Assembly (NCBI RefSeq): GCF_009846885.1
Contig: NZ_WUWM01000001.1
Span: 248,001-312,000 of the forward strand
Direction: 5' to 3'
From: Paenibacillus puerhi
GTDB lineage: Bacteria > Bacillota > Bacilli > Paenibacillales > NBRC-103111
Length of the DNA stretch: 64,000 nt
The translations under genes and the position numbers were made by a program. Under the pieces are notes generated by a model that worked only from the letters and a program-made list of their open reading frames with translations, made no database searches and was not told the origin of the DNA. Shown piece by piece: positions 8,722-19,821 of this stretch. Numbering within the stretch: position 1 is the stretch's first letter; every line of letters starts with the position of its first letter.

Positions 8722-9605
8722 AGAAGGTTGCATTGCTTGGTCCGGGCACCTACACGGAGGAATCGGCCCATCATGTACTGGGCAAGGAGGCATTCGATTA
8801 CGTAGGATGCAGCCTGATCGCGGATGTATTCCAATCGACGGTCACCGGAGCGACGGATTATAGCGTTATTCCGATTGAGAATACGTTCGAGGGCTCGGTT
8901 ACGCTGCATGTGGATTGGCTGGTACACGAGGTCGACCTGCCTATTCAGGCCGAGTGGGTGTACCCGATCTCCATTAATCTCCTTCGTCTGCCGGAAGGGG
9001 ACGATGAGTCCCTGGTAACCGACCGCGGGGCTGCGTGCTCCCGCATCCGCAAGGTGTACTCCCATAGCGTCACGCTGGCGCAATGCCAGCGTTTCCTGCG
9101 AGAGCTGCTGCCTCATGTCGAGCTGGAGCAGGTGGGCAGCAATGGCGAAGCGGCCCGACTGGTACGCGAGCTGAAGGATCCAACGGTGGCCGCCCTGGCT
9201 CCACAGGGAGCCGGTATCTTGTACAAGCTCCAGACGGTGGCGGCAGGCGTACAGGATCATCAAGACAACTTCACCAGATTCGTGCTGATCGGTCCGGAGA
9301 AGCCGGAGCTGAAGCCGTCGTCGGATACCAAGACCACGATTCTGGTTACGCTGCCGGAGGATTATCCAGGCGCGCTGCATCAGGTGCTCTCCGCCTTCGC
9401 CTGGCGCCGGATCAATCTAACGAAGATCGAATCCCGACCAACGAAGAAGAGGCTTGGCAATTATTTTTTCTACATTGACATTAAAGCGTCCATGGACTCC
9501 GTCCTGCTGCCGGCAGCGCTGCAAGAGATTGAGGCGATCGGCTGTCAGGTACGTATTCTGGGGTGTTACCCGACTTATTCCTACCAGCCGGTTCCGTCGA
9601 AGTGA
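8718..9605 (+). CDS. pheA: Prephenate dehydratase
   Basis: A 295-residue enzyme converting prephenate to phenylpyruvate in phenylalanine synthesis. GPGTYTEESAHH at the start and IPIENTFEGSV are family motifs, and the catalytic TRF triplet is at about T186-R187-F188 (NFTRFVLIG). A C-terminal ACT domain with ESRPTKKRLGNYFFY (about 237-251) is the phenylalanine feedback site. It is the last gene of the pheB-hom-thrB-pheA unit, overlapping thrB by four bases and followed by a terminator. Confidence 0.96.
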   Translation: MKKVALLGPGTYTEESAHHVLGKEAFDYVGCSLIADVFQSTVTGATDYSVIPIENTFEGSVTLHVDWLVHEVDLPIQAEWVYPISINLLRLPEGDDESLVTDRGAACSRIRKVYSHSVTLAQCQRFLRELLPHVELEQVGSNGEAARLVRELKDPTVAALAPQGAGILYKLQTVAAGVQDHQDNFTRFVLIGPEKPELKPSSDTKTTILVTLPEDYPGALHQVLSAFAWRRINLTKIESRPTKKRLGNYFFYIDIKASMDSVLLPAALQEIEAIGCQVRILGCYPTYSYQPVPSK

Positions 9606-9731
9606 TAGTTGAATATGGGCGTGTGCGGGAAGAAGGTTCCTGCTAGCTATGACGGACTTGCGCTCAGGAAGGTAAGTTTCGGTCGGTCATAGGTAAGGTT
9701 TGGCATACAGGAGCAGTATTGTTCGAGGAAA

Positions 9732-9812
9732 AGTGGAATCTAGAGCCGTATTTCATCCTAACCCCTACTTAGGGGGGAAGGGAGGATGGCGAGCTGGGTT
9801 CCGCTTTTTTTT
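9732..9812 (+). terminator. Terminator after pheA
   Basis: A branched hairpin. The outer stem AGTGGAATCT / GGGTTCCGCT (several G-U pairs) encloses CATCCT/AGGATG and CCCCT/AGGGG stems, and is followed by eight T. The bases from 9606 to about 9731 between pheA and this hairpin show nothing recognisable. Confidence 0.75.
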
Positions 9813-9850
9813 GTTTGTTTAAAAAGCAGAATTAGAATTAAAATGAGAGA

Positions 9851-9879
9851 TTGAAGTTGGATGGCGGCAGAACTATACT
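9851..9879 (+). promoter_or_regulatory. Possible promoter ahead of the CRISPR leader
   Basis: TTGAAG and TATACT are separated by exactly 17 bases. They lie just before the leader-like inverted repeat and point toward the repeats. Confidence 0.45.
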
Positions 9880-9893
9880 GAGACTATATCCTA

Positions 9894-10061
9894 GTGCGAA
9901 CCCCAAGCTCACATGAAAATCCCTGGGGATTCGCACCTCAGGCAGGACATGGGATTCGGGCGTTTTTGAAGTGATTTTGGAACGTTGTGGAGCCTAGTTA
10001 AAGTGGGTCGCACTGTTGAGGCTACAATCCCAGGCGCAATAAGGGGTTGTAAGGGGATGTT
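9894..10061 (+). promoter_or_regulatory. CRISPR leader-like region
   Basis: The 168 bases before the first repeat carry an imperfect inverted repeat GTGCGAACCCC (9894-9904) / GGGGATTCGCAC (9925-9936) and end in the G-rich AAGGGGTTGTAAGGGGATG just before the repeat. From memory this layout resembles leaders of Bacillales type I-C arrays; no alignment was made. No open reading frame of interest lies in it. Confidence 0.5.
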
Positions 10062-10159
10062 GTCGCTCCCCGTGCGGGAGCGTGGATTGAAACTACATCA
10101 GGAACACCATAGGCACCCTTACCGATGGTCGCTCCCCGTGCGGGAGCGTGGATTGAAAC
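10062..10159 (+). CRISPR. Minimal type I-C CRISPR array (2 repeats, 1 spacer)
   Basis: Two identical 32-base repeats at 10062-10093 and 10128-10159 begin GTCGCTCCCC, contain the short palindrome GCTCCC/GGGAGC and end GTGGATTGAAAC, the form typical of type I-C repeats. They flank a 34-base spacer (10094-10127). Both repeats are perfect copies, so the array has not decayed. No cas gene lies in the window. With only two repeats this rests on the repeat sequence, the standard spacer length and the leader. Confidence 0.85.
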
Positions 10160-10190
10160 GCCTGACATAAACGTTTTCCCGATTGTTCGA

Positions 10191-10218
10191 ACCCAAGCCT
10201 AACCCGCTTGGTTTTTTT
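10191..10218 (+). terminator. Short terminator after the CRISPR array
   Basis: CCAAGC / GCTTGG with a 7-base loop is followed by seven T. Confidence 0.65.
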
Positions 10219-10377
10219 ACGTTTCCGGCCAAGCTGCATTCGTTTTCCCTAACTCGCGCAGGGATGCTGGTTCAAAATATCGAATACGAGGTACTATGAG
10301 AAGTTAGTACTGTTTCCTGTATCGCTATTCGCTACAATAAAGCTAGATAGACTTTCGCGATGACGGGAGGATTCGAC

Positions 10378-11376
10378 ATGCAGAGACGCGAGGTAAAGAT
10401 TGTCGGAACAGGTAAGTATTTGCCGGCGACACAAGTAACGGCACAGGAGATGGATCAACGGCTGGGAGTACCTGACGGGTGGGTGCTGAAGAAGTCGGAT
10501 GTGAAGGTTCGTTACTTTGCGGGTGATGAGAAGGCTTCGGATATGGGGGCCCGGGCGGCTGAACAAGCGCTGGCTGCTGCAGGACTCGAGTTTGCCGATA
10601 TCGATTGTCTAGTTTGTGCGAGCGGCACGATGGAGCAGCCAATTCCCTGCACCGCGGCGCTGATTCAGCGTGCGATGGGGCAAGGCGGCTCGGGGGTGCC
10701 GGCTTTGGATATCAATACGACCTGTCTGAGCTTTGTGGCTGCTCTCGACATGGTTTCCTATATGGTAGCGGCAGGCAGGTATCGCCGAGTGCTGATCGTG
10801 TCTGCCGAAATTGCTTCGAAGGGATTGAATTGGCATCAGAAGGAAAGCACAGCGTTGTTCGGGGACGGGGCCGCCGCTGCAGTGATCGAACGCTCACAGC
10901 CCGGAGAGCCGTCCGGGATTCTTTACGCATCCATGGAAACCTATGGGGATGGGGCTTCGTTATCCGAAATTCGCGGAGGAGGAAGTGCGCTTCCGGCCAG
11001 TTTATATGAGCCTGATCAGGCTGGAGAGTTTTCATTTGATATGAACGGGTCGGGTATTTTTCGGATGGCTTCCCAACGCCTGCCTTCTTTCCTGGAGCGG
11101 CTGCTTACGGCAACGGAGCTGAAAATAAGCGACTTCAAGCTGGTCATCCCGCACCAAGGCAGCGCGATGGCGATGAGGCTGCTTGGGCGAAAGCTGGGCA
11201 TTTCCGAAGAACAGATGATGTACATTACACCTGATCACGGCAATACGATTGCGGCTTCGATTCCGATGGGACTGCACGAGGCGGTGCGCCAAGGCCGTAT
11301 AGAGCGCGGAGATCATGTGCTGCTGCTGGGCACTTCCGCTGGCTTGTCGCTGGGGGGACTGGCCTTTGTCTATTGA
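10378..11376 (+). CDS. 3-oxoacyl-ACP synthase III-like (KASIII/thiolase-fold) enzyme
   Basis: A 332-residue KASIII-fold enzyme. The Cys-His-Asn triad of decarboxylating condensing enzymes is visible at about C116 (INTTCLSFV), H259 (IPHQGSAM) and N289 (DHGNTIAAS). ATG 10378 follows GGGAGG at 7 bases and is preferred over ATG 10360. Family members join an acyl thioester to malonyl-ACP, or in secondary pathways make beta-keto acids or esters. Housekeeping FabH is less likely because the gene opens an operon of ligase, reductase, hydrolase and acyltransferase genes with no fab gene. The next ORF starts inside its last codons. Substrate unknown. Confidence 0.85.
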   Translation: MQRREVKIVGTGKYLPATQVTAQEMDQRLGVPDGWVLKKSDVKVRYFAGDEKASDMGARAAEQALAAAGLEFADIDCLVCASGTMEQPIPCTAALIQRAMGQGGSGVPALDINTTCLSFVAALDMVSYMVAAGRYRRVLIVSAEIASKGLNWHQKESTALFGDGAAAAVIERSQPGEPSGILYASMETYGDGASLSEIRGGGSALPASLYEPDQAGEFSFDMNGSGIFRMASQRLPSFLERLLTATELKISDFKLVIPHQGSAMAMRLLGRKLGISEEQMMYITPDHGNTIAASIPMGLHEAVRQGRIERGDHVLLLGTSAGLSLGGLAFVY

Positions 11377-12712
11377 ACGGGGTCGGGTACTGCTGACAGG
11401 CGGCCGGGCGCCTGCCGCACTGGAGCTGGCGAGGCAGCTGGCGTCTGCGGGCTGGAGTGTGTTTGCGGCAGAGAGTGCAGAGCGGCATTTATGCCGGGCC
11501 TCCAGGTCAGTAAGCGGCCATTTTCGTCTGCCGGAACCGATTCATGGGGCAGAGCCATATATCTCGGCGCTTGAAGAAATCGTGCGGCGTGAGGAGATCG
11601 ATTGTCTGATTCCGACTTGCGAGGAGATCTTCTACGTATCGGCAGGGCTGGAGCGTCTAAGCCGTCACTGCCGGGTGATTGCGGCTCCGCTCGGACAGCT
11701 GAAGCGGCTGCATAGCAAGTGGGACTTTATCCAGCTGGCGGAGCGGCTCGGCTTCCCTGTTCCCCAAACCTTGAAGCTGGTGCCCGGCGACCAGGCAAGC
11801 TTGGAGGCGAGCCTGAAGGCGCTGCAGCAGGCCGAATTTGCAGGGGGAGTCGTGCTTAAGCCTGAATTTTCCCGGTTTTCCTCGCAGGTGCAAAGCTTTG
11901 ACAATCCCCGAGAGGCGGTCCGGTTCATGCTCCATGTGAGTGGTTTAGAAAAGCGCAACTTCGAAGCCGCGGAGAGAGGGCGGGAGCGAAAAGCCGGGAA
12001 TGGAAACGGAATGAGAGCTTCTTTTAGAGAAGCTCAGCAGATAGATGCAGCTGGTTCCGACGACGATACCTCTGAAGCCCAAGGAACTTCTGCGGCTTGG
12101 GTCATGCAGCGATTGGTCAGAGGCCGGCAGCTATGCACCTACGGTATTGCCCATGAAGGCGAGCTTAGGGCTCATGCTGTATATGAGTCGCGTTATACGG
12201 CGGGCAGGGGTGCGACCGTATACTTCGAGGCTATTGTTCACGATGGCTTGCGTGAATGGGTAGAGCGATTCGTGCGAGCCGAACGATTCAGCGGGCAGAT
12301 TGCATTTGATTTCATCGAGGACGGACATGGCGTTCTGTATCCGCTCGAATGCAATCCCCGGGCGACGAGCGGGGTTCATTTATTCGGCCCGGGAGACGGA
12401 TTGGTTCAGGCGTTGCTCGACAATCAGGAGCGGATGGACGCTTTGGCGGAGCCGAAGCGGGGAGCAAGAGCCATGCTGGCTTTACCCATGCTGGCTTACG
12501 GCTTGCCTGCCCATCTATCCTGGCAAGGTATGAAGAGGTGGCTAGGCGACTTCCGACAAGCAAGCGATGTGGTATATCGGAGCGGCGATCCCGGGCCGTT
12601 CCTTGAGCAGGCGCGGATGCTGTGGGAGCTGAAGCGAAGGGCGGCGGCGAGCGGCATGACGATCATGGAAGCCTCTACGGCCGATATCGAATGGAATGGG
12701 GGGACAATGTGA
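11366..12712 (+). CDS. ATP-grasp domain protein (carboxylate-amine/thiol ligase-like)
   Basis: About 448 residues. The N-terminus (GRVLLTGGRAPAALELARQLASAG) is a Rossmann-like pre-ATP-grasp domain, then VIAAPLGQLKRLHSKWDFIQLAERLGFPVP leads into the ATP-grasp fold, with the metal-binding end LECNPRATSGVHLF at about 345. Such enzymes activate a carboxylate as an acyl phosphate and join it to an amine, thiol or similar group. A hydrophilic stretch of about 50 residues (about 195-245, rich in Gly, Glu, Ser, Asp) interrupts the ATP-grasp region. The TTG start overlaps the KASIII gene by 11 bases; this start is a judgement. Substrate unknown. Confidence 0.8.
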   Translation: MSIERGRVLLTGGRAPAALELARQLASAGWSVFAAESAERHLCRASRSVSGHFRLPEPIHGAEPYISALEEIVRREEIDCLIPTCEEIFYVSAGLERLSRHCRVIAAPLGQLKRLHSKWDFIQLAERLGFPVPQTLKLVPGDQASLEASLKALQQAEFAGGVVLKPEFSRFSSQVQSFDNPREAVRFMLHVSGLEKRNFEAAERGRERKAGNGNGMRASFREAQQIDAAGSDDDTSEAQGTSAAWVMQRLVRGRQLCTYGIAHEGELRAHAVYESRYTAGRGATVYFEAIVHDGLREWVERFVRAERFSGQIAFDFIEDGHGVLYPLECNPRATSGVHLFGPGDGLVQALLDNQERMDALAEPKRGARAMLALPMLAYGLPAHLSWQGMKRWLGDFRQASDVVYRSGDPGPFLEQARMLWELKRRAAASGMTIMEASTADIEWNGGTM

Positions 12713-13719
12713 TGAAGGCTCTCGTCACCGGAGGGACGGGCTTTCTGGGAGGGCATCTCGCCTTAAGGCTTCGTGATCTTGGCTGGGAGGTAACTGCTAC
12801 TGGCCGAAGCGAAGAGGCGGGGCGTCGTCTGGAGCAGGCGGAGATTCGCTTCGTCCGGGCGGATCTGGACGATGGACCGCGGATGATGCAGCTATGCGCC
12901 GGCCAAGATGCTGTCTTTCATTGCGGGGCTCTGTCGGCGGCGTGGGGCAAGTATGCGGATTTTTACGCCAGCAATGTGAAGGGAACCTCTCACGTAGCGG
13001 AGGGCTGCCTAAGGCATGAGGTTGGCCGAATGATCCATGTGTCGACGCCGAGCGTTTATTTTGGCGGTTCGCACCGCCTGAACGTGAAGGAGTGTGAGCC
13101 GCTTCCTGTCCGGCAGGCCAGTGCTTACGCCCGCACCAAACGGATGGCCGAGACGATCATCGAACAGGCGGCAGGCCGAGGGCTGCGGTCCGTCGTTCTG
13201 CGTCCGAGAGCCATATTCGGTCCGGGAGACCGGACCATCCTGCCGAAGCTGATCCAGGCAGGCGAAGGCCGAGGCGTGCCGATGATCGACGCAGGCCGGG
13301 GGCTGGTCGATCTGACCTATGTGGATAATGCGGTGGACGCGATGCTCCAAGCGTATTGGGCGCCTCAACAGGCGGTAGGCCGTGTCTTTAATATTACAAA
13401 TGGGGAGCCGATGCCGCTGGCTGAGGCGGCTGCCTTGCTGTTCGCCAAGCTCGGTATGCCGCTGCGCACGGTCAAGCTTTCGTATCCGGCGGCTTATACG
13501 CTGGCGTCGCTGCTTGAGCTCACGGCTTACTTGCGGCCGGGAGCGGGAGAGCCGCAGCTTACCCGGGCGACGGCAGGGATGCTTGGCCGCAGCCAGACGC
13601 TGGATATCGGGGAAGCGAGGCGGGTATTGGGATATGAGCCTAGAGTGAGCATAGCGGAGGGGCTGGAACGATTTGCGGATTGGTGGAGGGAGCAGCGAGA
13701 TGGACATGCCATGGTTTGA
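12712..13719 (+). CDS. NAD-dependent epimerase/dehydratase (3-beta-HSD/OleD-like SDR)
   Basis: A 335-residue extended short-chain dehydrogenase. TGGTGFLGGH (about 6-15) binds NAD(P), and the catalytic Tyr-x3-Lys is Y139/K143 (SAYARTKRMAE), preceded by HVSTPSVYFG with the catalytic Ser/Thr. It resembles the 3-beta-hydroxysteroid dehydrogenase branch that includes OleD, which reduces beta-keto acids made by the thiolase OleA. The start codon shares its A with the TGA of the ATP-grasp gene, so the two are translationally coupled. Reduction of a beta-keto product of the KASIII-like enzyme is an inference. Confidence 0.82.
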   Translation: MKALVTGGTGFLGGHLALRLRDLGWEVTATGRSEEAGRRLEQAEIRFVRADLDDGPRMMQLCAGQDAVFHCGALSAAWGKYADFYASNVKGTSHVAEGCLRHEVGRMIHVSTPSVYFGGSHRLNVKECEPLPVRQASAYARTKRMAETIIEQAAGRGLRSVVLRPRAIFGPGDRTILPKLIQAGEGRGVPMIDAGRGLVDLTYVDNAVDAMLQAYWAPQQAVGRVFNITNGEPMPLAEAAALLFAKLGMPLRTVKLSYPAAYTLASLLELTAYLRPGAGEPQLTRATAGMLGRSQTLDIGEARRVLGYEPRVSIAEGLERFADWWREQRDGHAMV

Positions 13720-14599
13720 CAAGTGGGAAAAGGGACCGCACGAACCGGGAACCCGAGTGAAGCTTCGTCTGTTCACGGCAGGCTGCTGCAAGCATCCCGA
13801 ATGGGTGACGCTGCGTGGAGGGGCGCTTGCGCCGGTGAGCATCCCCGCGATGTTCGCTTGCATAGAGCATCCGAGCCGCGGCTATATGCTGTTCGATACC
13901 GGCTATGCGAGCCGTTTCCTGGAAGCGACGGACCGTTTGCCCGCAAGGCTGTACCGGATGCTGACTCCCGTCCGGTTCCGGGAGGAGGAGGGGGCCGCGG
14001 AGCAATTGAGGCGTTCAGGCATCGATCCTGCGGAAATTGGGCTGATTATGATCTCGCATTTTCATGCCGATCATATTGCAGGCTTGCGGGATTTTCCTCA
14101 TGCGCGTTTTATCTACGAGTCCAGCGGGTATGAGGCGGTCAAACAGCTTACCGGAATGGCGGCGCTGCGGCGTGCGTTTCTTCCGGAGCTGCTGCCGGAT
14201 GACTTCGAAGCGCGCTCGGATAGGCTGTCGGCAGACCGGCGGATTATGCCTCCTGCAGAGAGCGGCTTTCCTTTTCCCTATGTAACCGATGTACTGGGCG
14301 ACGGGAGTATACTGGCTGTAGATCTCCCCGGGCATGCGGACGGACAGATCGGATTATTTCTCTCAACGGAACGGCACACTTATTTTCTATGCGCAGATGC
14401 CGTCTGGTCGAGCCGTGCTTACCGCGAGTCGCGTCCTCCGCATCCTCTTGCAGGAGTCATCATGCCGAGCCGCGTACACTATGCCCAGAGCTTCGAACGC
14501 GTCGTCTCGCTTCACAGCCGATTTCCCCATATTCGGATCGTGCCGTCTCATTGTCCCGAGGCAAGCGCCCGCTGGACGGGAGGAGGAGAGGAATTATGA
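13700..14599 (+). CDS. Metallo-beta-lactamase-fold hydrolase
   Basis: A 299-residue MBL-fold enzyme with the zinc motif SHFHADH (H120, H122, D124, H125), a later GHADGQ histidine, the bridging aspartate in CADAVW, and PSHCPE near the end. The pattern resembles lactonase-like MBL proteins (acyl-homoserine-lactonase type) more than beta-lactamases, so ester, lactone or thioester hydrolysis is plausible. ATG 13700 has GGAGGG 9 bases before it and overlaps the SDR gene by 20 bases; ATG 13706 is an alternative. It may release or hydrolyse the pathway product. Substrate unknown. Confidence 0.83.
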   Translation: MDMPWFDKWEKGPHEPGTRVKLRLFTAGCCKHPEWVTLRGGALAPVSIPAMFACIEHPSRGYMLFDTGYASRFLEATDRLPARLYRMLTPVRFREEEGAAEQLRRSGIDPAEIGLIMISHFHADHIAGLRDFPHARFIYESSGYEAVKQLTGMAALRRAFLPELLPDDFEARSDRLSADRRIMPPAESGFPFPYVTDVLGDGSILAVDLPGHADGQIGLFLSTERHTYFLCADAVWSSRAYRESRPPHPLAGVIMPSRVHYAQSFERVVSLHSRFPHIRIVPSHCPEASARWTGGGEEL

Positions 14600-15921
14600 T
14601 CACAGTCGACCAGATGAAGATTATGGCACACTATGCTCGTTGTCGCTATGGGAGACGCTGGACGGACCGCGCCGCCTTCGAGCGGTGGCAGCAAGCAAAA
14701 GTCCTCTCGCATATCGAGCGGATCCGGGAAGCTTCTCCGTTCTATAGGGAGCTATGGGCGGGGCTTTCGACTGCTGACTGGCAGGCATTCCCTATGATCG
14801 ACAAGCAGGCGATGATGGAAGCATTCGATCGTCTGAATACGGCGGGTATCCGCAAAGACGAGGCATTTCAGCTGGCCCTGACAGCGGAGCGGACTCGTGA
14901 TTTCACGCCTGCTATCGGCGATATAACCGTCGGCTTGTCCTCGGGTACTTCGGGGAGCCGGGGGTTATTTCTGGTTAGCCGGAGCGAGCGGCTTGCCTGG
15001 GCCGGACATGTATTGGCGAGGATGCTGCCCGGCTCCTTGCTCGGCACACACCGGATCGCCTTCTTCCTTCGTGCCGACAGTAACCTGTATGGGACGGTTC
15101 AAGGCGGGCGGTTAGATTTCCAATTCTATGATCTGCTAGACCCGCTGGGTCGGCATTTGACCCGGCTGGATGTCCAACGGCCGACCCTGCTCGTCGCTCC
15201 GCCCTCCATGCTTCGTCTGCTGGCAGAAGCTGTGGAAGCGGGGAGGCTTCAGATCAGACCGAAGCGGGTGATTGCGGTGGCGGAGGTGCTGGAAGAGCTC
15301 GACCGCCAGATGATCGAATCTGCATTTGGCTCAGGGCTTCATCAGGTATACCAATGCACGGAGGGCTTTCTGGGAGCCACCTGCAGGTACGGAACGCTTC
15401 ATCTGAATGAGGATATCGTTTGTGTGCAAAAGGAATATCTGGATGAGGGGACGGGGCGCTTCGTGCCTATCGTTACGGATTTTTCGCGCTTTGCCCAGCC
15501 GATAGTCCGCTACAGGCTGAATGATGTGCTGACTGAGCGGAGCAGGCCCTGTCCTTGCGGCTCTGTATATCTGCCTATCGAGCGGATCGAGGGCCGCTGC
15601 GACGATGTGTTTCACCTGCCGGCATGCGAAGGCGGAGGGACGGTCGCCGTGTTTCCGGATTCGATCAGCCGGGCTATTATTGCGGCCTCAGAGGAGGTCA
15701 AGGCTTACCATGTCGTATTGCTGGAGGAGGGCGCTATGGAGGTGGCTCTGGAAGTGGGAGTGGAGGCATCGCTGGCAGACGTGCAGGAAAGCGTCGCGCA
15801 GTCGCTCGGCGGGCTATGCGCCCGTGTCGGCTGTCGGCTGCCGGAGCTTCGGTTCAGGCCGTATGAGTTTGCGCCCGGCGCCCGAAAGCTGCGGCGTGTG
15901 GAGAGGAGGAGCGGTCCATGA
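14596..15921 (+). CDS. Adenylate-forming enzyme, F390 synthetase/phenylacetate-CoA ligase-like
   Basis: About 441 residues related to the PaaK/F390-synthetase clade of adenylate-forming enzymes, which activate a carboxylate as an acyl adenylate. The phosphate loop LSSGTSGSRG is at about 114-123, the tail of the adenylation core includes YQCTEGFLG (about 252-260) and FSRFAQPIVRYRLND, and a CPCGS zinc-knuckle-like motif follows. From memory it matches a hypothetical clade (aden_form_hyp) often found with a KASIII-like gene. It starts inside the MBL stop (ATGA) and its own stop overlaps the next start. No carrier protein gene accompanies it. Confidence 0.78.
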   Translation: MITVDQMKIMAHYARCRYGRRWTDRAAFERWQQAKVLSHIERIREASPFYRELWAGLSTADWQAFPMIDKQAMMEAFDRLNTAGIRKDEAFQLALTAERTRDFTPAIGDITVGLSSGTSGSRGLFLVSRSERLAWAGHVLARMLPGSLLGTHRIAFFLRADSNLYGTVQGGRLDFQFYDLLDPLGRHLTRLDVQRPTLLVAPPSMLRLLAEAVEAGRLQIRPKRVIAVAEVLEELDRQMIESAFGSGLHQVYQCTEGFLGATCRYGTLHLNEDIVCVQKEYLDEGTGRFVPIVTDFSRFAQPIVRYRLNDVLTERSRPCPCGSVYLPIERIEGRCDDVFHLPACEGGGTVAVFPDSISRAIIAASEEVKAYHVVLLEEGAMEVALEVGVEASLADVQESVAQSLGGLCARVGCRLPELRFRPYEFAPGARKLRRVERRSGP

Positions 15922-17087
15922 CAGGAAGCCTGAGCGGAACTGCGGCGCTGTACGACGGAAGAAAAGAGCGGATTCCTTGGCCGGACGATGAGCAGGGCCG
16001 GTATGCGCAGCGGTATTTGCAGCCGATATTGGAGCAGCCCGTCTCCTCTTATATAACGAATATCGATACCTCGCTGCGGGTGCTGGGCCTATGCGGTCAT
16101 ACGGTGCCGGTCACGGTGAACAGTACCGAGTATGACAGCTCGTATGTCTGTTCTCCTTATACCCATTATGTGACCTATGCGAAGGAAGAGCTTCGTTTGG
16201 CAGGCTTTCGCGGGCTCCGGCCGCCGCTCTCGGCACTGCTCGATACGATGGGCGTTATGCTGAAAATGTCGGGAATTAACCGGGTAGTCCAAGTAAATAA
16301 TTGGCTGCTCTCAACCAATCTGTACCCGGCAATCCCGGAGGCTGCTTGGGAGCAGGCCGTAAGCCTGCTGCTGGATGCATATCCGAGCCATGCGCTTATC
16401 TTCCGTTCCTTGAACCGGACGTTGAATGGACCGCTTATCGAACGGCTTGTCAGTCACGGATTTCGATTGGTGCCCAGCCGGCAAATTTACCTGCTGAAGC
16501 CGTCGGACGACGCTTCGGTAAGCGCCAAAGCCCGCTGGTTGGTGAAGAGGGACTACAAGCTGCTGAGCAAGCACGGCTACGAGCGGCTGGAGCCCTCGGC
16601 TCTCACTCCTGCTGATATTCCTAGGCTGACCGAGTTGTACCGTGCTCTGTATGTGGAGAAATACTCGGCCTGCAATCCGCAGTTTACGGAACGATTCTTC
16701 GCGATGGCGCTGGAGCAGGGACTTCTTCAGCTCCATGCCCTCCGCAGCATCCGGACAGGACGGATCGACGGGGTGCTCGGCTTTTTCCAAAGGGAGGGAG
16801 TCATGACGACGCCGGTATTCGGCTACGATACCTCACTGCCCCAGTCGCTGGGCCTATATCGGATGCTCTCCGCGGTGCTGCTGGAGCTTGCAAGGGCGAA
16901 CGGCTGTCTGCTGCATGAGAGCTCCGGCGCCGCCCAATTTAAGCGTAACCGCGGCGCGTGGGCCGAGATCGAATATTCGGCGGTTTACGACCGGCATTTG
17001 CCGATAAGGCGTCAACTAGGATGGGCTATGCTGGGTAGTGTTCTGAATGGATTAGGGGTTCCCTTCATTCAAAAATACAAGCTTTAG
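15918..17087 (+). CDS. GNAT/FemAB-like acyltransferase (last gene of the six-gene operon)
   Basis: A 389-residue protein whose C-terminal half (about 215-365) looks like a GNAT- or BioF2-type acyltransferase: TELYRALYVEKYSACNPQFTE, then GVLGFFQREGVMTTPVFGYDT, and HESSGAAQFKRNRGAWAEIEY near the end, the usual place of the acyl-CoA fold. The N-terminal half is unassigned. It overlaps the adenylate-forming gene by four bases. Transfer of an acyl group onto the pathway intermediate is inferred only from fold and context. No clear terminator follows before the SafA-like gene. Confidence 0.65.
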   Translation: MTGSLSGTAALYDGRKERIPWPDDEQGRYAQRYLQPILEQPVSSYITNIDTSLRVLGLCGHTVPVTVNSTEYDSSYVCSPYTHYVTYAKEELRLAGFRGLRPPLSALLDTMGVMLKMSGINRVVQVNNWLLSTNLYPAIPEAAWEQAVSLLLDAYPSHALIFRSLNRTLNGPLIERLVSHGFRLVPSRQIYLLKPSDDASVSAKARWLVKRDYKLLSKHGYERLEPSALTPADIPRLTELYRALYVEKYSACNPQFTERFFAMALEQGLLQLHALRSIRTGRIDGVLGFFQREGVMTTPVFGYDTSLPQSLGLYRMLSAVLLELARANGCLLHESSGAAQFKRNRGAWAEIEYSAVYDRHLPIRRQLGWAMLGSVLNGLGVPFIQKYKL

Positions 17088-17154
17088 CCGACGGAAAAAC
17101 AGGCGTGCAGACGGCGGCCGGAGTGCTTAGAAGGAATTTTTTCACGATACTATG

Positions 17155-17182
17155 GTCAAATGCCCAGGTTGTTGCATAAACT
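17155..17182 (+). promoter_or_regulatory. Possible SigE-type promoter of the SafA-like gene
   Basis: CATAAACT (17175-17182) differs by one base from the SigE -10 consensus CATACAnT, and a partial -35 (GTCAAAT) lies 13 bases upstream. B. subtilis safA is transcribed by SigE. This is a weak match by eye. Confidence 0.3.
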
Positions 17183-17238
17183 GTAATGTCATTTTGTTCC
17201 GGCAGGACAGAGCGCAAAACTGAAGGAGGTTTACACAT

Positions 17239-19821
17239 TTGAAAATCCATATCGTGAAGAAAGGCGATACGCTTTACGAGCTCTCCCAGAAGTATGAGGT
17301 GGAGCTCGATAAGCTGATTGCTTTCAACCCTCAAATTGCGAACCCGGATGTACTCGACATCGGAATGAAAATCAAGATTCCGAGTGAATCGAAGCCGGCC
17401 GTACCACCGAACGACTATCTGTATAAGCATATGGTGGTGCAAGGGGACACACTGTGGAAGCTGGGCAAAGCCTGGAGCGTGCCGCTGGCCGATATGGTGG
17501 CTGCCAACCCGCAGTTGAAAAACCCGAATGTGCTGATGACCGGCGATGTCGTGTACATTCCAAAGCAAAAGTCCGTCCATGCCGGTCATGGCGAGTCAGA
17601 GAACCAGGCGAACGCATCCAATCTTGCTGGAGCAGGACATAAAGCCAACACCTCGGTTCAAATGGTGGCAGAATCCGTGGAAGAGAATGCTGCCAATGAG
17701 CTTCCTCCTAAGATTGACACGTCAGCCATGCCTATGACCCCGCTGCCTGTCGAGGCAACGCCGGTGTCGGAGCTGCCGCCCGCACCGGTTGTACCTGCGC
17801 CAGTTCCTATGAAGGAGGAGCCGGTTAAAGCTCACGAGCCGGTTGTCCTGCCGAATGTAAAGTCGAATGTACCGCCCCCTGTGTTGCCGGAAATGACTAA
17901 AGCTCCGAATCTGAATATACCGTATGGCCAAACGGAAGCAGGGAATCTGCCGCCAGCCAAGGATTTGTTCGCACAGTTTCAGGTGCCTGCCACCAAAGCA
18001 GGGGATGTTCCTTTTTCCCCAGAACCCGAGCTTCCGGTTTTTCCGAATATGCCGATCGAAAATATGGAAGTGAATGCTGCCATGCACGGACAACATGCGC
18101 CTTATCCGTTTTTCCCCGGTTTGGGGGCGAATGCCCAAGTTGCGGGAGGTTGTGGCTGCGGCCAACCGAATCTTCCTTATGCGCTGTCGCCTTCGGCCGA
18201 ATACCCGAATGCAGCGCCTAATGCGTACCCGTCAAGCGCTATAAGTCCCGCGATGGGGTGGCCGAACGCCTATCAACCGAATGTGGAGTATCCGTCGAAT
18301 TTTCCGAACGTGTACCAGCCGAGCGCCGTAAGTCCAGCGTTCGAGCAACCTAATGCGTACCAGCCAAGCGCTATAAGTCCAGCGTTTGAGCATCCGAATG
18401 CATACCAGCCGAGCGCCGTAAGCCCAGCGTTCGAGCATCCGAATGCGTACAATCCGAGCGCTATAAGTCCAGCGTTCGAGCATCCGAATGCGTACAATCC
18501 GAGCGCTATAAGTCCAGCGTTCGAGCATCCGAATGCGTACAATCCGAGCGCTATAAGTCCAGCGTTCGAGCATCCGAATGCGTACCATCCAAGTGCGGTA
18601 AGCCCAGCGTTTGAGCATCCGAATGCATACCAGCCAAGCGCCGTAAGCCCAGTGTCTGAATTTCCTAATGCGTACAATCCGAGCGCGGTAAGCCCAGCGT
18701 TCGAGCATCCGAATGCGTACAATCCGAGCGCGGTAAGCCCAGCGTTCGAGCATCCGAATGCATACCAGCCAAGCGCTGTAAGTCCAGCGTTCGAGCATCC
18801 GAATGCGTACTATCCAAGCGCTGTAAGTCCAGCGTTCGAGCATCCGAATGCGTACTATCCAAGCGCTGTAAGTCCAGCGTTCGAACATCCGAATGCGTAC
18901 TATCCAAGCGCTGTAAGTCCAGCGTTCGAGCATCCGAATGCGTACTATCCAAGCGCTGTAAGTCCAGCGTTCGAGCATCCGAATGCGTACTATCCAAACG
19001 CGGTAAGTCCAGCGTTCGAGCATCCGAATGCGTACTATCCAAGCGCTGTAAGTCCAGCGTTCGAGCATCCGAATGCCTACTATCCAAGTGCTGTAAGTCC
19101 AGCGTTCGAGCATCCGAATGCGTACTATCCAAGCGCGGTAAGTCCAGCGTTCGAGCATCCGAATGCGTACTATCCAAGCGCGGTAAGCCCAGCGTTCGAG
19201 CATCCGAATGCCTACTATCCAAGCGCGGTAAGTCCAGCGTTTGAGCATCCGAATGCGTACTATCCAAGCGCCGTAAGCCCAGCGTTCGAGCAACCTAATG
19301 CGTTCAATCCAAGCGTCGTAAGCCCGGTGTCTGAGTCTCCGAACGCGTTCCAGCCAACCGCAGTGAGCCCCATGATGGAAGGGTTGAATGTTAATCAGCC
19401 TTACGAGGCCCCTCGAGCGGAGGAAAAGCGAAGTGCTGCGCCAGCGGCGAGTCAAGGAAATGCATCGTATGGTGCCGCCGCCTTACTCCCGCAATTAACT
19501 GCCCCTTTCCCCAACGGGCAGCTCGCAACCATCAATGCGTATCCGGGTGTGGGTACGCTGCCCTTCACTTCGACGGGAACGACGGAGATTCCGGCAAACC
19601 CCATTGCTCCATTGGTGGATGAGTTCGCCCCAAAGCAAAAGGAAAGTAAAGCGAAAGGAAGCGTTAAGGAAAGCTCGAAGACGGCTGCTCCCAAAAGCAA
19701 AGCCCGGAACCGTGAACGTTCCGCGTATGACGCCATCAGCAGCTTGCTTAAGCAGAACCGGCGTAAAGGGAGCGGGGGAGCAGTCCGGGCAAAAAAAAAT
19801 AACCCATGGCTGAGCAGTTAA
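17239..19821 (+). CDS. safA: SafA/ExsA-like spore coat morphogenetic protein with LysM domains and giant repeat
   Basis: An 860-residue LysM protein. Two LysM domains are seen at about 2-47 (HIVKKGDTLYELSQKYEV) and 63-112 (HMVVQGDTLWKLGKAWSV), which bind peptidoglycan at the spore cortex. A Pro-rich linker, a CGCG motif, then a repeat of 24 units of 15 residues (about 356-715, core PNAYYPSAVSPAFEH) follow, and a basic C-terminus. SafA of B. subtilis and ExsA of B. cereus direct inner coat assembly, and ExsA also has long repeats. The start is TTG after AAGGAGGT. Its place before bofC-ruvAB matches safA. The ortholog call rests on LysM plus position, since the repeat itself is not shared with B. 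subtilis. Confidence 0.82.
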   Translation: MKIHIVKKGDTLYELSQKYEVELDKLIAFNPQIANPDVLDIGMKIKIPSESKPAVPPNDYLYKHMVVQGDTLWKLGKAWSVPLADMVAANPQLKNPNVLMTGDVVYIPKQKSVHAGHGESENQANASNLAGAGHKANTSVQMVAESVEENAANELPPKIDTSAMPMTPLPVEATPVSELPPAPVVPAPVPMKEEPVKAHEPVVLPNVKSNVPPPVLPEMTKAPNLNIPYGQTEAGNLPPAKDLFAQFQVPATKAGDVPFSPEPELPVFPNMPIENMEVNAAMHGQHAPYPFFPGLGANAQVAGGCGCGQPNLPYALSPSAEYPNAAPNAYPSSAISPAMGWPNAYQPNVEYPSNFPNVYQPSAVSPAFEQPNAYQPSAISPAFEHPNAYQPSAVSPAFEHPNAYNPSAISPAFEHPNAYNPSAISPAFEHPNAYNPSAISPAFEHPNAYHPSAVSPAFEHPNAYQPSAVSPVSEFPNAYNPSAVSPAFEHPNAYNPSAVSPAFEHPNAYQPSAVSPAFEHPNAYYPSAVSPAFEHPNAYYPSAVSPAFEHPNAYYPSAVSPAFEHPNAYYPSAVSPAFEHPNAYYPNAVSPAFEHPNAYYPSAVSPAFEHPNAYYPSAVSPAFEHPNAYYPSAVSPAFEHPNAYYPSAVSPAFEHPNAYYPSAVSPAFEHPNAYYPSAVSPAFEQPNAFNPSVVSPVSESPNAFQPTAVSPMMEGLNVNQPYEAPRAEEKRSAAPAASQGNASYGAAALLPQLTAPFPNGQLATINAYPGVGTLPFTSTGTTEIPANPIAPLVDEFAPKQKESKAKGSVKESSKTAAPKSKARNRERSAYDAISSLLKQNRRKGSGGAVRAKKNNPWLSS
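18304..19383 (+). repeat. Tandem 45-bp minisatellite, 24 units
   Basis: Twenty-four in-frame 45-base units encode PNAY-x-PSA(V/I)SPAFE(H/Q). The 'x' residue changes along the array: Gln or Asn in the 5' third, Tyr in the centre, Asn and Gln again at the 3' edge. Central units are almost identical in DNA, pointing to recent expansion or homogenisation; the outer units are degenerate. Because 45 is a multiple of three, copy-number changes keep the frame. Confidence 0.95.

Follow-up and report, generated by a model that had tools for sequence, protein, structure and literature searches.

What does a bacterium make with an operon that unites a ketosynthase, a reductase, a hydrolase and ligases, and that brings no carrier protein of its own? 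The question is raised by a stretch of 64,000 nucleotides from Paenibacillus puerhi (contig NZ_WUWM01000001.1, positions 248,001 to 312,000), hereafter the window, in which six genes lie together at 10378-17087. We consider that this operon represents one form of a mobile cassette of four enzymes, and that it probably makes a small lipid-like molecule. Our preferred reading, to which we give a probability of about 0.5, is a self-contained, horizontally moving pathway that supplies no carrier protein itself and makes a small acyl (lipid-like) metabolite. The family names assigned by NCBI are already known, as are stand-alone KASIII condensation pathways as a kind. The pathway itself had been predicted to be undescribed, and this is supported: open-access papers yielded no study of the cluster, with subscription papers and natural-product databases lying outside the search.

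A conserved core with variable tailoring genes

The six open reading frames are intact, run in one direction and touch or overlap at their ends, and they end where the original prediction had placed them. The catalytic motifs it had named (C116/H259/N289, CNPRATSG, Y139-x3-K143, HFHADH at residue 120 of the hydrolase, and LSSGTSGSRG) are all confirmed. Its claim that there is no internal terminator also holds: the 10 terminator-like matches in 9600-17400 are roughly as common as in shuffled sequence (mean 7.6, standard deviation 2.7). The sole match with a long T run, a terminator-like stem followed by seven T at 10193-10211, lies upstream of the operon, just past CRISPR-like repeats. Between this stem and the ketosynthase gene no sigma-70-like promoter was found, and no riboswitch or other Rfam element was found up to an E value of 0.1; a GGGAGG box stands immediately 5' of the start at 10378. 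The contig that holds the window has no PP-binding carrier domain, which bears out the predicted lack of a carrier protein or megasynthase, and many such domains lie elsewhere in the genome.

Gene neighbours were taken from 20 fetched regions and 80 named loci, the latter covering Paenibacillus, Saccharibacillus, Brevibacillus, Cohnella, Thermoactinomycetaceae, Bacillus and others; conservation was counted over 100 dereplicated loci, among which related loci are not independent. Four genes form the core, namely those for the KASIII-type ketosynthase, the extended short-chain dehydrogenase/reductase (SDR), the metallo-beta-lactamase (MBL)-fold hydrolase and the TIGR02304 ligase, and all four are present in 94 of the loci. 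The other two, an ATP-grasp ligase and a tandem GCN5-related N-acetyltransferase (GNAT)-fold protein, are tailoring genes: 55 loci have both, 34 the ATP-grasp gene alone, one the GNAT gene alone, and 10 neither. The six proteins are correlated in their pairwise distances (r 0.87-0.93), which fits joint travel, with a contribution from shared ancestry. Joint conservation in relatives had been set beforehand as a check, and the genes proved to be kept together. Since the gene set recurs in about 100 other loci, chance grouping is excluded, and the prediction of a single dedicated metabolic operon is supported.

The family cut-off for TIGR02304 is exceeded in 36 of 100 relatives. A profile built from the aligned ligases found the gene in 126 of 346 genomes of the order and in 49 of 300 in a class-wide sample, so the cassette belongs to the patchy accessory genome; because the flanks differ between loci, it moves as a block. 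In 57 loci the operon is followed by a co-directional classical SDR gene at a median distance of 29 bp. The window operon lacks this gene, the genome's best homologue (62% identity) being on another contig.

The core also extends beyond the Bacillota. It is present in 672 of 5,426 complete Escherichia coli genomes, including Nissle 1917, where it is chromosomal, lies between narI and tyrosine transfer RNA (tRNA) genes and is followed by PAP2, FA_hydroxylase and FA_desaturase genes. In the Rhodobacterales Ketogulonicigenium and Paracoccus it adjoins a TetR regulator and a sulfotransferase; in Fusobacterium it stands behind a classical SDR and a GT21 glycosyltransferase, and in a 2.1-Mb Bacilli genome behind another glycosyltransferase, EryCIII/GT28-like. 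Pseudomonas and Burkholderia carry it as well. The six-gene set is not peculiar to Paenibacillus, since Paraburkholderia has the core with ATP-grasp and GNAT genes, and Rhizobium and Shinella have the core with GNAT, Rieske protein and ATP-grasp genes.

Several observations concern how the core has spread. The ketosynthases of the 2.1-Mb Bacilli genome (L077) and of Fusobacterium (L159) are sisters (100/100) and share the altered gene order SDR-MBL-ligase-KAS (KAS, ketosynthase), which suggests transfer between these Bacilli and Fusobacterium lineages. The Pseudomonas megaplasmids pMPPla107 and pBASL58 (L160, 9001-12565; L169, 1-9263) both have a TIGR02304 gene; further core-like genes are dispersed or were not seen close by, which may reflect decay or rearrangement of the cassette. 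A phage origin was rejected, as phage records gave weak partial matches only.

Table 1. Genes of the six-gene operon in the window.
Product	Position	Strand	Role and remarks
KASIII-type ketosynthase of the PRK07204 family, which falls with MxnB/CorB in the KASIII tree	10378-11376	+	core gene
ATP-grasp ligase (PRK06849-like), probable carboxylate-amine ligase	11366-12712, TTG start	+	tailoring gene
Extended SDR, 3-beta-hydroxysteroid dehydrogenase-like reductase	12712-13719	+	core gene; OleD is the nearest curated family, score below cut-off
MBL-fold hydrolase, complete two-metal site	13700-14599	+	core gene, though absent from a few loci
Adenylate-forming enzyme, TIGR02304 (F390 synthetase-related), PaaK-like	14596-15921	+	core gene
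Tandem-GNAT transferase, Sbb17/FemX/MprF-like fold	15918-17087	+	tailoring gene

The enzymes and the reactions they may catalyse

The ketosynthase exceeds the cut-off of NF005541 (PRK07204, beta-ketoacyl-acyl carrier protein synthase III; 444 bits against 402), and its triad C116-H259-N289 is invariant across the alignment. Its best matches in the PDB are MxnB (4v2p) and CorB (4yuc), from the myxopyronin and corallopyronin systems, well ahead of FabH. In a tree of 25 rows with few outgroups, the cassette ketosynthases, this one among them, join MxnB and CorB on a branch of 100/100 apart from FabH, and the genome's own KASIII paralogues group with FabH. There are three of these elsewhere in the genome, with 27-33% identity to the operon enzyme, for which a role as the sole housekeeping FabH was therefore rejected. 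The window enzyme and MxnB/CorB also have CLSF and GGGS features in common, as well as an aliphatic residue at a telling position: PpyS, like OleA, needs a glutamate as base (Glu105 and Glu117, respectively), which extends into the partner's active site, and the equivalent residue is Val94 in MxnB (Kresovic et al., PMC4578411) and, in our alignment, Ile89 in the window enzyme. An Ole-type reaction is disfavoured by this replacement. MxnB condenses two long acyl chains with each other, given as beta-keto thioesters (PMC5724707), and by analogy a two-chain condensation by the window enzyme is possible. The likeness has its limits, as the chains of MxnB and CorB come from large polyketide synthases with carrier proteins, whereas the window operon has neither, and its ketosynthase is accompanied by SDR, ligase and MBL enzymes. 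The chain fusion of malleicyprol was rejected as a model, the mechanism in that paper being different.

The adenylate-forming ligase scores 509 bits against TIGR02304 (cut-off 251.9). Its invariant features are SSGTSG, T255-E256-G257, Y306-R-L-x-D310, G333-R-x-D-D and the C-terminal Lys431, and its nearest solved relatives are PaaK-type ligases, including phenylacetate-CoA (coenzyme A) ligases and AjiA1. Like the ketosynthase, it thus lies above the curated cut-off of a family that NCBI uses for annotating such clusters. In contrast, the ATP-grasp protein falls just below that of PRK06849 (372.7 bits against 406). The NCBI family tables examined hold no pathway assignment for TIGR02304, PRK07204 or PRK06849. 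The SDR matches Pfam Epimerase and 3Beta_HSD and has the GGTGFLG and Y139-x3-K143 motifs.

The hydrolase matches PF00753. In 13 diverse sequences H120, H122, D124, H125, H212, D233, H284 and W236 are invariant, and seven of these residues are metal ligands. In N-acylhomoserine lactone (AHL) lactonases a tyrosine stands three residues after the bridging aspartate. In the window protein the residue three past Asp233 is the invariant Trp236, and the score against the AHL lactonase AttM is 77 bits (cut-off 390), so that the protein is weakly AttM-like and falls outside the AttM/AiiA lactonases despite its metal ligands.

The tailoring proteins were characterized mainly by their predicted folds. 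The ATP-grasp model (predicted local distance difference test, pLDDT, 90.4) matches 2pn1 (Z 27.5), PurD (25.5), PylC (24.9) and also PurK, and the Rhizobium homologue exceeds the ATP-grasp_3 cut-off and is slightly short of that of PylC-like_N. The last protein has zero matches in Pfam, NCBIfam, PHROGs and PDB sequences. Its model (pLDDT 92.9) resembles Sbb17 (Z 17.5), FemX (16.7), MprF (15.3) and N-myristoyltransferase (13.4), and it shares the tandem GNAT fold with the FemABX/MprF/Sbb17 aminoacyl-tRNA-dependent transferases (Z 14-17.5). Its second domain has an invariant F341-K342 pair resembling the catalytic lysine motif of DhpH (F328-K329) and FemX. Double-GNAT enzymes of such type are aminoacyl-tRNA users (review, PMC12945691). 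The original label of GNAT or acyltransferase therefore stands as regards the GNAT fold, which is in tandem; judging from the model, the protein is not evidently an acetyltransferase, and the fold search led us to reject a plain acetyltransferase. In some Paenibacillaceae clusters (L075, 10459-11643; L153, 10356-11633) a second ATP-grasp gene lies between the ligase and GNAT genes, as if two couplings occurred.

From these families we infer the following reactions. The PaaK-like ligase would charge a carboxylic acid as acyl-AMP or acyl-CoA, which the MxnB/CorB-type ketosynthase would join to a second thioester that donates a beta-ketoacyl or malonyl unit. Reduction of the new ketone to an alcohol would fall to the extended SDR, and at some point along the route the MBL-fold enzyme would hydrolyse a thioester or a lactone. 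The ATP-grasp enzyme and the tandem GNAT of this lineage would then couple one or more amino acids to the scaffold, with aminoacyl-tRNA as the probable source for the GNAT. The same core would be decorated in other lineages by glycosyltransferases (Fusobacterium and the 2.1-Mb Bacilli genome), a sulfotransferase (Rhodobacterales) or a hydroxylase, a desaturase and a PAP2 phosphatase (E. coli). These accessory genes are of lipid type, as is the distantly KdsR-like classical SDR gene that follows many Paenibacillus operons, and a hydroxylated lipid scaffold fits them.

A number of points weigh against this reading. The order of the steps is deduced from the enzyme families, and the various lineages that supply the accessory genes may each make another product. 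An MxnB-type reaction, in which two carrier-bound beta-ketoacyl chains are condensed, would yield an alpha-pyrone, for which the SDR is not obviously needed, and a FabH-like decarboxylative condensation fits equally well. The MBL gene is absent in three loci (L064, L067 and L091), from which it can be argued that its enzyme is not essential. As for the last protein, its fold also matches acyl-CoA N-myristoyltransferases, and hhalign found no similarity to two FemAB proteins, so that the aminoacyl-tRNA reading relies on the fold and one F-K motif.

More tentatively, the KAS-SDR-MBL-TIGR02304 core as a whole may be an unrecognised mobile lipid-building cassette of several phyla, whose shared hydroxylated scaffold would be capped with an amino acid in Paenibacillus and rhizobia, a sugar in Fusobacterium and some Bacilli, or sulfate in Rhodobacterales, and would undergo further oxidation in some E. 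coli. If true, well-studied bacteria contain a complete small-molecule or lipid pathway that has escaped notice, E. coli Nissle 1917 and roughly one in eight complete E. coli genomes included. Because the cassette lacks both carrier protein and megasynthase, the usual rules for finding clusters would probably pass it over. With the E. coli version, the question can be addressed directly in a tractable strain.

Other pathways that the gene set recalls

The pqsABCDE operon for alkylquinolone signals combines KASIII proteins of the stand-alone type with an adenylating CoA ligase and a thioesterase of MBL fold. The window operon likewise unites a stand-alone KASIII, an adenylating ligase and an MBL-fold hydrolase; its ketosynthase retains the full Cys-His-Asn triad, and the nearest solved relatives of its ligase include phenylacetate-CoA ligases and AjiA1. 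On a similar plan, the ligase would make an aryl-CoA, the ketosynthase would extend it with malonate, and the hydrolase would be a PqsE-like thioesterase, the product being a small aromatic signal and not a lipid. We regard this as rather unlikely, though it is the rival that survives best. The PDB matches of the MBL protein do not include PqsE, PqsC-type entries are distant from a ketosynthase that is closest to MxnB and CorB, and no genes for aryl supply were seen beside the operon. Moreover, the window operon has one KASIII gene, an additional extended SDR and different tailoring genes, and the accessory genes of other lineages are of lipid type.

A membrane aminolipid of sphingolipid-like or ornithine-lipid-like kind we hold to be doubtful and slightly less probable again. 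In this reading the core would make a hydroxylated long chain, and the GNAT would be an N-acyltransferase that uses acyl-CoA in place of aminoacyl-tRNA. The classical SDR behind many Paenibacillus operons is distantly KdsR-like (202 bits against 3-ketodihydrosphingosine reductase), and the E. coli hydroxylase is weakly similar to OlsE, but both scores are far under their cut-offs. GT21, the ceramide glucosyltransferase family, accompanies the core in Fusobacterium, yet the annotated neighbourhoods inspected showed no gene resembling that of serine palmitoyltransferase, for which no model search was made. The match of the GNAT to N-myristoyltransferase also points in this direction, but it lies about 4 Z units under the best, and FemX and Sbb17 are closer.

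The Ole pathway of olefins and beta-lactones (OleABCD), with which the operon had originally been compared, shares a thiolase-fold enzyme, an extended SDR and an adenylating enzyme in a single operon, and OleD is the family nearest to the SDR, but it is very improbable here, given a ketosynthase that has Ile89 for the catalytic glutamate and groups with MxnB and CorB, an SDR far under the OleD cut-off (NF042422; 250.7 bits against 580), a PaaK-like TIGR02304 ligase, and an MBL enzyme in an operon that lacks the alpha/beta-hydrolase OleB.

Genomic position and neighbouring features

The operon lies between pheA and safA, and its position next to a SafA-like gene had suggested a spore-related lipid or pigment. 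Among the loci read, only this genome and one close relative have the operon at this site. Seven other relatives have pheA directly beside safA with no operon between them, and G003, one of the seven, has the operon on another contig. Furthermore, carriers of the core include the non-sporulating E. coli, Fusobacterium, Rhizobium and Paracoccus. The spore or pigment link was rejected on account of the empty sites and this distribution; the position beside safA is a matter of insertion site.

Two repeat features flank the operon. Within the SafA-like gene (17239-19821), a 45-bp repeat occurs about 23 times at 18303-19322, corresponding to a 15-residue unit around SAVSPAFEHPNAYYP. On the other side, pheA and the operon are separated by a gap with a CRISPR-like mini-array at 10062-10159, which consists of two identical 32-nt repeats (GTCGCTCCCCGTGCGGGAGCGTGGATTGAAAC) and one 34-nt spacer; three near copies occur on contig C12 of the same genome.

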